DNA from: a virus
DNA length: 24,734 nucleotides
IMG/VR virus record: IMGVR_UViG_3300022074_000355
Span: 1 to 24,734 of that record
Direction: 5' to 3' (one strand)
Every line of letters begins with the position of its first letter. Position 1 is the first letter of the stretch. The translations under genes and the position numbers were made by a program. Shown piece by piece: positions 1,484 to 23,705 of the stretch. The notes below the pieces were generated by a model, which worked only from the letters and a program-made list of their open reading frames with translations, searched no databases and was not told the DNA's origin.

Positions 1484-2416
1484 TTATGCTGCTGCTCGAT
1501 TCATAAGTTCACGAAGAGCAAATACTCCTTGCTCTTTGTGCTTGCACTCACACATAATGTGCAGGGCGTGACCGTAAGTATCAGGCGCTGACCAGTATGA
1601 ATCAGAGTGTGCTTGTGGTTTAATTTTGGTGCTGTTGTGCTCCTCAGCCCGTGACTGAGAATAATGAACAACAGGGATAACATCTTGTGGCCAAGTGCTC
1701 ATGGCCAATTCCAATGCTTCGCGCTCTGTCTGCCCACCTGTGCAGAAACGATGGTGGTGATAGTCGAACACAATAGGGATGCCGATGCGCGAGTGAACAT
1801 AGTCAAACAAATGCTTTGTAGACCACATTGATGCCTTATCATCATTCTCCACGGTCAAGCGCTTCTGCGTGTTCTCGTTGAGGCGATAGAAGTTCTTACA
1901 CCAACGCTTTGCTGTTCCTTCGAAGTCTCCACCGTATGTGCCGCCAACGTGAATGTTGATCTTGGCCCACGGCGTTGCTGGCAAGCCCATCAAGTCAAAG
2001 ATCTCTGATTGGTCGTTCAATTCCTTGATGGTCTTCTCCACCACGCTCTGCTTTGGTGAACCCAAAACATTGAACGGGCCGGGGTGTGTTGTGATACGCA
2101 TACCGTGCTGTTTTGCAAAGTCACCGCATTTCTTGAGCGTAGCCTTAATCTCTTGATAATCAGGCAACTCCTCTAGGCGATACTCGGATGACCATGGAAA
2201 CAAATTAGATGTCAGTCGGAAAAATGCAAACCCATGATCGAGATTCCATTGTAGAATCTTGTACAGGTCTTTGCAGTTTAGCAATCCTAGCTCTGATGCG
2301 TAGGGTAGCCCCTTCGCTCTAAATGTTCGTTGGATCATCCCCCGGTTCGTCGTAATCCGCTTGGACTTCGGCAGGTTGGAGAGTGTCATATTCATACATG
2401 CATAGCCTAAATTCAT
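1484..2416 (-). CDS. uvsE: UV damage endonuclease, UvsE/UVDE family
   Basis: UVDE enzymes nick DNA 5' to UV photoproducts, starting an excision pathway independent of UvrABC. The 310-residue TIM-barrel protein shows family hallmarks in order: RLTSNLFPWSS near 68, THPG near 110, INIHVGGTYG near 153, VENDD near 189, FDYHHHRF near 217 and HYSQS near 251. These carry the metal-binding His/Glu/Asp set. Length is close to bacterial UvsE. The start ATG at 2416 is preceded by AAGGAGG five bases away. It has its own promoter (2439-2467), and a long inverted repeat covers its ribosome binding site (separate entry). A role in repairing phage DNA after sunlight exposure is inferred. Confidence 0.93.
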   Translation of the reverse strand: MNLGYACMNMTLSNLPKSKRITTNRGMIQRTFRAKGLPYASELGLLNCKDLYKILQWNLDHGFAFFRLTSNLFPWSSEYRLEELPDYQEIKATLKKCGDFAKQHGMRITTHPGPFNVLGSPKQSVVEKTIKELNDQSEIFDLMGLPATPWAKINIHVGGTYGGDFEGTAKRWCKNFYRLNENTQKRLTVENDDKASMWSTKHLFDYVHSRIGIPIVFDYHHHRFCTGGQTEREALELAMSTWPQDVIPVVHYSQSRAEEHNSTKIKPQAHSDSYWSAPDTYGHALHIMCECKHKEQGVFALRELMNRAAA

Positions 2417-2464
2417 AGTGCCTCCTTTTTATAAATATATTATAACACAACTTGAGGCACTATG
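2414..2464 (-). promoter_or_regulatory. Inverted repeat sequestering the uvsE ribosome binding site in read-through RNA
   Basis: On the minus strand CATAGTGCCTC (2464-2454) is followed, after a 29-base loop, by its perfect complement GAGGCACTATG (2424-2414). The second arm contains part of the Shine-Dalgarno sequence and the whole AUG of uvsE. The first arm includes the dnaE stop codon. The promoter -10 lies in the loop, so mRNA starting near 2432 lacks the first arm and has an open start site, while mRNA read through from dnaE can form the 11-bp stem. The repeat is seen directly; the regulatory effect is inferred by analogy with phage T4 genes such as e and soc. Confidence 0.7.
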
Positions 2465-15319: not shown

Positions 15320-15348
15320 AATATAGCCTATCTAGGCCTCGTTGTCAA
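15320..15348 (-). promoter_or_regulatory. Promoter for helicase and nrdJ, with a palindrome in its spacer
   Basis: Minus strand: -35 TTGACA (15343-15348), 17-bp spacer, -10 TATATT (15320-15325). The spacer holds a perfect palindrome, GCCTA-TC-TAGGC (15326-15337), directly between the two hexamers, a classic place for a repressor. The -35 overlaps the last codons of the exonuclease gene. Confidence 0.8.
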
Positions 15349-16313
15349 GCGACTTGTTTATTTTTTTCGACCAATCCTCGTAGCATCGCCATAAGCTCGG
15401 ACCAATCATAAGAACCAAAACCATGCTCGACAGAGTTTCGCTTGAGTTCTGTTGCATTTAGTTCAAATTCAAAATTGTCTAGGGCATAGTTGATTTTACC
15501 GCGACCTTGAACCGAAATGCTTGGGGGAGTAAGATTCATAACTTTGTAGTTTGTCTCTACTGTATCCCATTCTTCAACAACATTGTTGTAAAACTTGACC
15601 TTGCTATCAACGTTGGCGCAAAAGTCGTGTACCTCGGACAACGTGTGCATCTTATCTTCAATCAAGAAGTCAAGACGCTTAGAGATGGTTGCAAGACCTG
15701 CCCCCCGAATACCTGCCAAATTATCGGACTTATCACCTGCGATGGCCCGTGCAATAACAAAATTTTCCGGCGAGATTCCGTATTCTTCAATCACTGTGTT
15801 CTTTGTCCATGCCTTCTTTTGGATCGGGCGATAAAGAACTGTTTCTTCGTCGAGCAACTGTAGAAAGTCTTTATCTGAGGATACAATTACTTTCTGGCAA
15901 CCCTTGAACTTTGGAGAACCAACGACCATCGAAATAATGTCGTCTGCCTCCACCCGGTCAAGCATCAACTGCATCACTGGCATCTCATTCAACATCTCCA
16001 TAAGGATACGCTGTTGCCATACCATATTTTCTTTCTCAGACTGCTTGGTCATACCCTCAACCTGATAATTCTTTCGCAGTGGCTTGCGGCCCTGCTTATA
16101 CTCCTTAACTGTTTGACGACGCTTCTGCGAGCCTCCAGCCCCATCCCAACAAATGATAACTTGGTCTGGCTTTGACTCTCGCATCAATTTCTTGACCGAG
16201 TTTAGAAAGCCAACCGTACCTCCGATTGGGTTACCGTTAGTGGAAATCATTGGATTAACAATGTAATTCCTGATAAACATATTAAGTGCATCGATGATTA
16301 GAACGCGCTTCAT
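15345..16313 (-). CDS. 5'-3' exonuclease/flap endonuclease (RNase H-like, T4 Rnh/T5 D15 type)
   Basis: Removes RNA primers and 5' flaps from lagging-strand fragments. The 322-residue FEN-family protein shows the metal-binding acidic motifs in order: LIIDALN (5-11), VIICWDG near 53, VEADDII near 121, SSDKDFLQLL near 145, and GDKSDNLAGIRGAG near 193, which begins the helix-hairpin-helix (H3TH) region. Length fits the T4/T5 enzymes. AGGGGGAG lies three bases before the ATG. The gene overlaps the deaminase end by 32 bases and has its own promoter inside that gene (16330-16358). It would complement the family A polymerase, which lacks a 5' nuclease domain. Confidence 0.95.
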   Translation of the reverse strand: MKRVLIIDALNMFIRNYIVNPMISTNGNPIGGTVGFLNSVKKLMRESKPDQVIICWDGAGGSQKRRQTVKEYKQGRKPLRKNYQVEGMTKQSEKENMVWQQRILMEMLNEMPVMQLMLDRVEADDIISMVVGSPKFKGCQKVIVSSDKDFLQLLDEETVLYRPIQKKAWTKNTVIEEYGISPENFVIARAIAGDKSDNLAGIRGAGLATISKRLDFLIEDKMHTLSEVHDFCANVDSKVKFYNNVVEEWDTVETNYKVMNLTPPSISVQGRGKINYALDNFEFELNATELKRNSVEHGFGSYDWSELMAMLRGLVEKNKQVA

Positions 16314-16716
16314 TTACTCCCCCTGATACTTTATAACATCCAATTGTTTGATTGTCAACTGAGTAGTATACTCTTTTGACACCTACATGACTTAAAACTT
16401 CATGACACATGTTGCACGGAATCGATAAACAAAGATTGCCTTTGTGATTCACACGAACAACATATAAGTCGGACCCGTTTGTTTTCTCACGAGACACACC
16501 AAGGACCGCACCTATTTCAGCATGAATGGTAGCCGGTCCTCGATGACGGGCACGAAACTTCTGTGCCCATTGTTTAAATTTGTTTCTGTTGTTCGACCAG
16601 CTAATAACCGAGCCACCTTTTACCAAGATGGCTGCGTGTTTGTGATGCTGATCTGAAGTTAACGCTAGCCTCTTTGCCAGATCAACATACCTCTTATTAC
16701 GTCCTGTAATAAGCAT
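16282..16716 (-). CDS. Cytidine/deoxycytidylate deaminase family protein (probably dCMP deaminase)
   Basis: Zinc-dependent deaminase of 144 residues with the catalytic pair TIHAEIGAVLG (zinc His and proton-shuttling Glu) and PCNMC (two zinc Cys). The order and spacing fit the cytidine-deaminase superfamily. Given the phage setting with thyX and dut, conversion of dCMP to dUMP is the likeliest reaction, but an RNA/tRNA or free-nucleoside deaminase is not excluded; the allosteric site of T4 Cd is not evident. AGGGGG lies four bases before the ATG, and this site is covered by a long inverted repeat around its promoter (16717-16760). Confidence 0.88.
   Translation of the reverse strand: MLITGRNKRYVDLAKRLALTSDQHHKHAAILVKGGSVISWSNNRNKFKQWAQKFRARHRGPATIHAEIGAVLGVSREKTNGSDLYVVRVNHKGNLCLSIPCNMCHEVLSHVGVKRVYYSVDNQTIGCYKVSGGVNEARSNHRCT
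16330..16358 (-). promoter_or_regulatory. Promoter for the exonuclease gene
   Basis: Minus strand: -35 TTGACA (16353-16358), 17-bp spacer, -10 TATAAA (16330-16335) preceded by TGT. It is inside the 3' part of the deaminase gene and just before the exonuclease ribosome binding site. Confidence 0.65.
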
Positions 16717-16760
16717 AAGACCCCCTGATCATTTATATAGTATCATGATCAGGGAGCCTT
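16717..16760 (-). promoter_or_regulatory. Inverted repeat sequestering the deaminase ribosome binding site in read-through RNA
   Basis: In minus-strand RNA AAGGCUCCCUGAUCAU (16760-16745) can pair over 16 consecutive positions, two of them G-U, with AUGAUCAGGGGGUCUU (16732-16717); the loop has 12 bases. The second arm contains the AGGGGG ribosome binding site and ends at the base before the AUG. The -10 of the promoter (16737-16742) lies in the loop, so a transcript starting near 16730 lacks the first arm and stays open. There is no U-run after the stem, which argues against a simple terminator. The design is the same as at uvsE. Confidence 0.7.
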
Positions 16761-16765
16761 GTCAA
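16737..16765 (-). promoter_or_regulatory. Promoter for the deaminase gene
   Basis: Minus strand: -35 TTGACA (16760-16765), 17-bp spacer, -10 TACTAT (16737-16742). The hexamers flank and partly sit inside the inverted repeat described separately. Confidence 0.75.
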
Positions 16766-16776
16766 GTACAAAAAAA

Positions 16777-17055
16777 TTAAAGTCTGATTACAAACCTTGG
16801 ACCACGCCTATGGCGATGGTGCCTATGATGATGCACACTGCGAACAACGGTGCGCGGGACGTTTCTACAAATTACAACTCTCTTGAAGTGCCCTCGTACC
16901 CAAATCCCTCGTCTATTATAGTGACCGGCAACGTACTGCTTTTGGACAGAACATACCTTTTGCACTACCGTCGTTTGAACTGTGTGTGCTTTGGCTTCGG
17001 GTGTGAACCCGAACATCAATCCCAAAGCAATGAAAAAAGAAAAAATAAACTTCAT
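16777..17055 (-). CDS. Secreted His-rich cationic protein, function unknown
   Basis: A 92-residue protein with a clear Sec signal peptide: a Lys at position 2, a hydrophobic core (FIFSFFIALGLMFGF) and an AKA cleavage site near residue 23. The mature part of about 69 residues is very basic, has two cysteines (35 and 63) that could form a disulfide, a YVAGHYNRRGIWVRGHF repeat-like segment, and a His-rich run near 75-83 that may bind metal. It would act in the periplasm or envelope of a Gram-negative host. GGAGGG lies upstream of the ATG. It lies between recA and the deaminase gene with no obvious promoter of its own. A run of seven T follows the stop. Confidence 0.8.
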   Translation of the reverse strand: MKFIFSFFIALGLMFGFTPEAKAHTVQTTVVQKVCSVQKQYVAGHYNRRGIWVRGHFKRVVICRNVPRTVVRSVHHHRHHRHRRGPRFVIRL

Positions 17056-22412: not shown

Positions 22413-23705
22413 TTAGTAAAAAACTTTCTTGATACTCTTGGCTTTTCTTTTTATAACTTCTTCAGGTGTCAGCTTATCTTTGCCTGACATTGCCTGCCGC
22501 ATCTTCTCACTCGCGTGATATAGAGAACCGTTATAAAACTCAACCCCCGAGAACTTTACTCTAGTATAACGCATCGCTTCTCGTGTGTCAAGTGTTTTTT
22601 GTATATCTTTCGCCACCCTTATAATGGCCGTCTCCGCAGGGGTCGAATAATTAAGTCCGGTTTCCTTGTTTCGAACCTTAATAAATAGTTCCAACCACCT
22701 GCAATCGCTATAGCATTCGTTAAGCTTTTGCAAAGTAATTGGCGAACGTCCATATGATACCCTATTAGTAACGTTTGGATGAAATGTCTCTTTTTGGACG
22801 ATTGGGTTATCGGACACAAATTGATTGTATAGACTCACAAGGTAAAGCTTTAAATTTTCTATCTCTTTTGTCGATGTTTGAACAAAAAATTTATTTACGA
22901 TATCATCAACGCTTTCTACATCTTGATATTGTTTCGCATACTCGATCATTTGTGGCGAGTTCATATTTGCGACCAGTCTCCAAGGGACGTTCTTGTCCAC
23001 CATAAATCCATATTGATTGGCAGTTCTACGAAATTGTTGAAAATTTGGACTGTTAATAAACTCAATCTTTGGCTCATCTTCGCTATAGCTCAGAGACTGA
23101 ACATCGATGCACAAGCCGCTTGCCATTGGGCCAAGATGACGACTTAACATAAATGCACTTCTAGTAAAAGGCGCTTTGTACACATTCAGCAAATAGTAAG
23201 ACATTTCCCTCAGAAAATCATTCATATCAAGTATGTCGTCAGTCATGTTATTGTCTGCCAAGTAACGAACAAAAGAATTGTAGAATGATTTTTGCAACTC
23301 TCTATACGCATCTCGAATCGACATATAGCCTTTTACTGCCTCGATCTCTGATAGAAACGGGTCGTCTTCTTGCAAATTGCCGAATCTAATTTGCAACAAA
23401 TACTCTGTTTGGAACTCTTTAAATGCGTCGGCAACAAAATTTAAAACCAACACAGAGTTCTGCTTTGTCCTCAACGGCTTCATATACGGAACATATGGCT
23501 CGATTGGTTCTGAAATATCACTAGTGTTGATTCTGCCAACAAATGCCCTCTCAGCCCACCAAAAATCAACAGTCCCAGCGGGCAAGAAACCTTCCCTAGT
23601 GGCTTCATACTGCTCGGGTGAAAAGGCTCTAGATTTGTATTCGGTCCTGTTAGTGTACAACTCACGGGACGACATTGTATTTTTTGCTTTTATTTTATCT
23701 GGCAT
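22413..23705 (-). CDS. Probable phage structural protein, function unknown
   Basis: A 430-residue soluble protein with no signal peptide or membrane span and no enzyme motif that I recognise. It has many aromatic and Asn/Gln residues and segments such as NQYGFMVDKNVPWRLVANMNSP and PFTRSAFMLSRH. The C-terminus is strongly basic (VIKRKAKSIKKVF). I call it structural because of its size, composition and pairing with the equally large gene before it, not because of a motif. GGGGAG lies six bases before the ATG at 23705. Its 3' part holds the promoter for the polymerase gene, the usual arrangement here. Confidence 0.7.
   Translation of the reverse strand: MPDKIKAKNTMSSRELYTNRTEYKSRAFSPEQYEATREGFLPAGTVDFWWAERAFVGRINTSDISEPIEPYVPYMKPLRTKQNSVLVLNFVADAFKEFQTEYLLQIRFGNLQEDDPFLSEIEAVKGYMSIRDAYRELQKSFYNSFVRYLADNNMTDDILDMNDFLREMSYYLLNVYKAPFTRSAFMLSRHLGPMASGLCIDVQSLSYSEDEPKIEFINSPNFQQFRRTANQYGFMVDKNVPWRLVANMNSPQMIEYAKQYQDVESVDDIVNKFFVQTSTKEIENLKLYLVSLYNQFVSDNPIVQKETFHPNVTNRVSYGRSPITLQKLNECYSDCRWLELFIKVRNKETGLNYSTPAETAIIRVAKDIQKTLDTREAMRYTRVKFSGVEFYNGSLYHASEKMRQAMSGKDKLTPEEVIKRKAKSIKKVFY
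22563..22591 (-). promoter_or_regulatory. Promoter for the family A polymerase gene
   Basis: Minus strand: -35 TTGACA (22586-22591), 17-bp spacer, -10 TATACT (22563-22568). It is inside the 3' end of the 430-residue gene. It marks the switch from the probable structural genes to the replication genes. Confidence 0.7.

Follow-up and report, generated by a model that had tools for sequence, protein, structure and literature searches.

The window, by which we mean the whole IMG/VR virus fragment of 24,734 bases analysed here, carries nearly all of its genes on the minus strand. The hairpin under study precedes a gene that the preliminary description had called a deaminase, and this identification was confirmed by a match to PF00383 (1.3e-10) and by an invariant HAE...PCxxC zinc motif. 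The 144-aa product also matched phrog_174 (2.5e-13), and its nearest solved chain was 4p9c, a deoxycytidylate deaminase. A Megablast search with 6 kb of the window among 50,697 phage records gave no match, and the window UvsX was at most 37% identical to the nearest UvsX of a cultured phage. No family of Rfam 15 matched the window above its gathering score. The features discussed below are listed in Table 1.

Table 1 Genes and predicted control elements of the window.
Feature	Position	Strand	Remark
Deaminase gene, 144 aa, dCMP-deaminase family	16282..16716	-	HAE and PCxxC zinc motifs, profiles
5'-3' exonuclease gene, downstream of deaminase	15345..16313	-	
Upstream 92-aa ORF, co-directional	16777..17055	-	its transcription would enter the hairpin
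-35 element TTGACA	16760..16765	-	last base is the first stem base; TTGAC in nearly all related elements
5' arm AAGGCUCCCUGAUCAU	16745..16760	-	upstream of predicted transcription start
Loop gauacuauauaa, 12 nt, contains -10	16733..16744	-	fold
-10 element TACTAT, extended -10 TG, 17-nt spacer	16737..16742	-	within the loop
Predicted transcription start	16730	-	from promoter geometry, 7 nt past -10
3' arm AUGAUCAGGGGGUCUU	16717..16732	-	fold
Shine-Dalgarno AGGGGG	16721..16726	-	4 nt before AUG; all bases paired in read-through RNA
uvdE sister element, arms CAUAGUGCCUC/GAGGCACUAUG	2414..2464	-	11 Watson-Crick pairs
uvdE element promoter	TATAAT 2444-2439 in 29-nt loop; weak -35 TTGCAT 2467-2462	-	

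The whole intergenic element between the 92-aa ORF and the deaminase gene is TTGACAAGGCTCCCTGATCATGATACTATATAAATGATCAGGGGGTCTTATG, and the minus-strand RNA at the site reads UUGAC[AAGGCUCCCUGAUCAU]gauacuauauaa[AUGAUCAGGGGGUCUU]AUG, where single brackets mark the arms and gauacuauauaa is the loop. The hairpin (minus strand 16760-16717) consists of 16 contiguous pairs, two of them G-U, closed by a 12-nt loop; its second arm covers AGGGGG and ends flush with the deaminase AUG (16716-16714), exactly as described beforehand. The -10 had likewise been placed in the loop and the -35 at the foot of the other arm, where TACTAT and TTGACA were indeed found. The fold had a z score of -5.6, and none of 200 shuffles equalled it. 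From the spacing of these elements we infer an active promoter whose start would fall within the 3' arm, giving a leader of 14 nt; the 5' arm lies upstream of that start and would therefore be missing from the gene's own mRNA. Codons 2-8 of the deaminase (window 16713-16693, minus strand) contain another hairpin, a perfect one of 8 bp, CUUAUUAC AGGAC GUAAUAAG; it is kept in the 98% relatives L002 and L003 and absent from more distant orthologs.

Stem length by itself is weakly unusual: a stem of at least 16 pairs occurred somewhere in 4 of 100 shuffled windows, and chance pairing could be aided by the C-rich complement that any G-rich Shine-Dalgarno (SD) sequence easily finds. The survey drew on related phage DNA totalling 2.02 Mb, namely loci retrieved by UvsX and UvdE searches and whole or partial records, and gave 228 non-redundant sets, in each of which a TTGA promoter (9 or more of 12 matches) precedes an SD and a start codon. 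The arms paired at -17.5 kcal/mol or better in 40 sets, against 2.65 expected when the downstream arms were swapped among sets. The element exceeds swapped as well as shuffled controls, a comparison of the kind suggested in the preliminary description for inverted repeats that span a promoter and end in an SD. When a sequence collection was scanned for promoter, SD and T-rich spacer, the hairpin was present at 8 of 40 unique viral sites (0.76 expected by swapping). The sites with a hairpin include L222, a dUTPase by eye, and L218, another deaminase. The same pattern matched 22 times in 391 clostridial genomes, with the hairpin, by inspection, only at the match of the seed genome; the promoter-SD-T-spacer pattern alone thus does not create a hairpin. 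Given the swap null, this clostridial result, and the covariation and recurrence at deaminase orthologs described below, chance pairing is hardly credible. It is the joint placement, with the end flush with the AUG, the -10 lying in the loop, the -35 at the stem foot and the SD within an arm, together with the conservation, that excludes it.

A general bacterial device is not claimed. A pattern scan of bacterial genomes gave pairing arms at 45 of 117 sites, against 5.3 on swapping, but complementary arms are selected by the pattern itself, and a -35 is missing from most of these sites; when a full promoter was required, only the seed among the 22 clostridial matches carried the hairpin. Single near-perfect copies of the whole element, with TTGACA, a -10 in the loop, an SD arm, a T-run and ATG, were seen in the bacterial genome records L307, L373, L267 and L364, e.g. 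TTGACAAAGCCTCCTTTGGCACATTATAATGAATGTGCTAAAGGAGGTTTTTCATG.

An alignment-based search for the deaminase returned 80 loci, of which 40 were non-redundant in upstream sequence. The promoter was present at 30 of these 40 and the hairpin at 22 of those 30, and the arm sequences were unrelated among the 22; the deaminase gene is the steadiest associate of the promoter-in-hairpin. At six deaminase loci (L415, L421, L423, L431, L434, and L437), a plain terminator-like hairpin with no recognisable -10 in its loop lies just upstream, which may be a forerunner of the element or a degenerate remnant of it.

Twelve orthologous hairpins at the deaminase junction were aligned gap-free for covariation. In this set of related sequences, in which neither the cell counts nor the orthologous loci are independent events, a standard pair was found in 92.2% of cells and both sides had changed in 10 of the 16 pairs. 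Sliding the partner by 1-3 columns lowered pairing to 37-53%, and no shuffle attained the observed covariation score. Between the window and L002/L003, both arm changes preserve pairs and all 16 are kept; the 5' arm of these relatives, AAGACCCC, turns both G-U pairs into canonical ones and makes a perfect 16-bp palindrome. The stem is thus kept by compensatory change, in support of the earlier reading, and the rebuilding of the hairpin with different letters in related phages shows that the device is under selection.

A near-perfect dyad centred on the -10, and perfect in L002/L003, would also be the expected appearance of a DNA operator at which a dimeric repressor binds across the -10. However, no half-site is common to the orthologous loci or to the two sites of the window, and the end of the stem is set by the SD or the AUG, not by a fixed distance from the promoter. 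Moreover, mismatches on the coding strand were G-U in 39 cases and A-C in 13, the two being treated alike in stem finding. A DNA palindrome offers no reason for such a bias, whereas RNA of that strand does, and the excess points to selection on the RNA of this strand, not on symmetric DNA. We accordingly consider an operator very improbable.

Strong promoters are present upstream of the hairpin on the minus strand, and read-through into it is therefore expected. RNA polymerase coming from the uvsX side would transcribe both arms, so that the stem would form, the SD would be buried, and the deaminase would not be made from read-through mRNA. By contrast, polymerase that initiates at the embedded sigma-70-type promoter, with the loop as its -10, would begin inside the second arm; the first arm would never be transcribed, and the short leader would offer a free AGGGGG. 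The predicted cost of opening the SD (GGGGG core) in the window was 17.8 kcal/mol in read-through RNA versus 2.2 in the gene's own transcript, modelled as starting 7 nt past the -10, which agrees with the earlier claim that the SD is buried only in RNA entering from upstream. The medians were 13.3 and 2.0, respectively, for 40 hairpin elements, versus 2.3 and 1.6 for 172 promoters without a hairpin, a contrast partly built in because the elements were picked by pairing energy. On these models, the embedded-promoter hairpin probably restricts translation of the deaminase to the gene's own mRNA; the gene would be insulated from upstream transcription and its level set by its own promoter. We infer both the silencing and its purpose from fold and layout. 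A promoter of the sigma-70 type would not confer late timing; insulation from upstream transcription, or shut-off once such promoters are silenced later in infection, would both fit.

Other promoter-like sequences were seen in these genomes. Coding sequences of the window, those of the polymerase-like and neighbouring genes, contain five near-perfect promoters of the TTGACA-17-TATAAT type (22591, 21345, 21127, 20782, and 20590, minus strand). The sequence ACTATTTA is enriched 5' of ORFs in G001, G003, and G008 (loci L164-L189), with window copies at 22689 and 2647 (minus strand), and CTATTTA was found upstream of ORFs 10-12 times with 0.6-0.9 expected. In a 184-kb relative, ACTATTTA, a candidate late-promoter motif, is strongly strand-biased and does not occur in the roughly 30 kb that surround the deaminase.

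In many relatives a U-run follows the same stem, and read-through would probably be stopped at transcription too. By the d'Aubenton-Carafa score (threshold d > 0), 19 of 41 elements but none of 80 controls exceeded the threshold. The spacer between SD and start codon was 63% T in the hairpin elements, compared with 32% in other promoter genes and 29% in ORFs of at least 100 aa, which suggests a terminator role in many members. T-tailed terminator-like hairpins numbered 118 in the related DNA, and in 30 of them the loop held the -10 of a promoter with 9 or more of 12 matches. In the class before the exonuclease gene (L022, L023, L024, L026, L028, L038, L047, and L053), TTTTACTTT or TTTTTT comes after the stem and a separate SD after that, so that the element there would be a promoter inside a terminator and not a means of hiding the SD; with the SD outside the stem, sequestration is not the common denominator of all members. 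These results speak for a rival reading by which the stem would chiefly terminate the uvsX unit, as an intrinsic terminator with the promoter of the next unit embedded in it, and the SD overlap would be a by-product of compaction. In the window, however, the U-tract is broken (UCUUAUGCUUAUU) and d is -16.8 (-8.1 in L002). In addition, L112, L120, L019, and the class at a 72-74 aa ORF have no U-run yet carry the SD in the stem, and by inspection the SD lies within an arm in essentially every deaminase-class member. We thus regard a chiefly terminating stem as unlikely. A working terminator, which the preliminary description had set against its own reading, holds in part for the relatives and fails for the window. 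A terminator for the opposite strand was rejected, as no U-run lies past the stem on the plus strand.

Since the window stem is under the terminator threshold, its role is best read as silencing of translation, and the window element would mainly block translation of read-through RNA. We conclude from these comparisons that one architecture probably provides two blocks to read-through, one of translation and one of transcription, in a mixture that varies by member. A bolder and rather doubtful view is that the elements form a single composite class of about 50 bp, a promoter in a terminator in a ribosome-binding site, which ends one unit and starts the next with a relay of polymerase between them. 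After releasing its RNA at the U-run, a polymerase that remained on the DNA could begin again at the promoter of the same hairpin; restarting after termination, at promoters close by, is known from work in vitro (PMC6978380).

Within the window, the device was found only at the deaminase site and at uvdE. The uvdE stem has 11 pairs, whereas 400 shuffles of its 5' side gave at most 8; the earlier observation of two unrelated stems with the same logic in one window is supported in this respect. Its conservation is partial: the stem is kept in L084 but lost in L085, whose protein is 83% identical, and uvdE as an equally conserved site was therefore only partly borne out. The distant uvdE genes L119, L122, L134, and L159 carry stems of their own. 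The further suggestion that such silencing is a general rule in this phage did not hold, as the stem accompanies 1 of 12 strong promoters of the window and about 2 of 35 in the 184-kb relative. The device is tied to particular loci, namely the deaminase, the 5'-3' exonuclease, uvdE, and the 72-74 aa ORF. Relatives that lack the deaminase (L006, L008, L022, L023, L024, L026, and L028) have an equivalent hairpin in front of the exonuclease, at the corresponding position in the gene order. The 72-74 aa ORF, which is zinc-ribbon-like, is preceded by a promoter-in-hairpin of its own (L012 11620, L019 7090, L022 8197, L025 7489, and L028 5545), whose stem includes the SD and lacks a U-run.

These findings suggest that read-through silencing of the T4 style is not confined to the late genes of T4 relatives. 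In uncultured marine phages the layout appears to have been rebuilt many times, with sigma-70-type promoters, at genes of nucleotide metabolism and repair, often fused to a terminator. Its signature, an inverted repeat with a -10 at its centre and an SD at its end, can be scanned for genome-wide; reading such phage genomes as plain operons would lead to wrong predictions of expression, and the element may serve as a compact insulated expression part for engineering.

In T4, hairpins over the SD or AUG of e (lysozyme), soc, 49, and I-TevI silence long early transcripts, and late promoters in or beside the 5' arm yield translatable mRNA without that arm; similar hairpins precede segB and Aeh1 mobE (PMC3014915, PMC2988022). 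The window shares with these the pairing of its SD in the predicted fold of the read-through RNA and, by its geometry, a promoter placed for a transcript that would lack the 5' arm. In T4, however, the promoter is mostly a late one and the effect is one of timing, whereas the window has TTGACA-17-TACTAT, the type of the genome's other promoters, so that the T4 reason of an early transcript and a late promoter does not carry over. No copy of the T4 late motif TATAAATA was seen 5' of ORFs in G001, G003, G008, or the window. Unlike in T4, the -10 is here the loop itself, many relatives have a terminator-grade U-run, and the genes encode nucleotide and repair enzymes in phages not close to T4 (UvsX 37%). 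In the transposase genes of IS10, IS50, and IS200, read-through RNA folds over the ribosome-binding site, and internally started RNA lacks one arm; their arms are the ends of mobile elements, whereas here they belong to a gene promoter and no transposon end was seen. With intrinsic (Rho-independent) terminators, about half of the related elements share a GC-rich stem and a U-run, but here a sigma-70-type promoter occupies the loop and usually the SD of the next gene the 3' arm, and the window member fails the terminator score. In the open-access literature, no equivalent was found described for promoters within terminators in phages. Taken together, the logic is known from T4; the new features are a promoter of the sigma-70 type, the merging of the device with a terminator, and its recurrence in uncultured marine phages.
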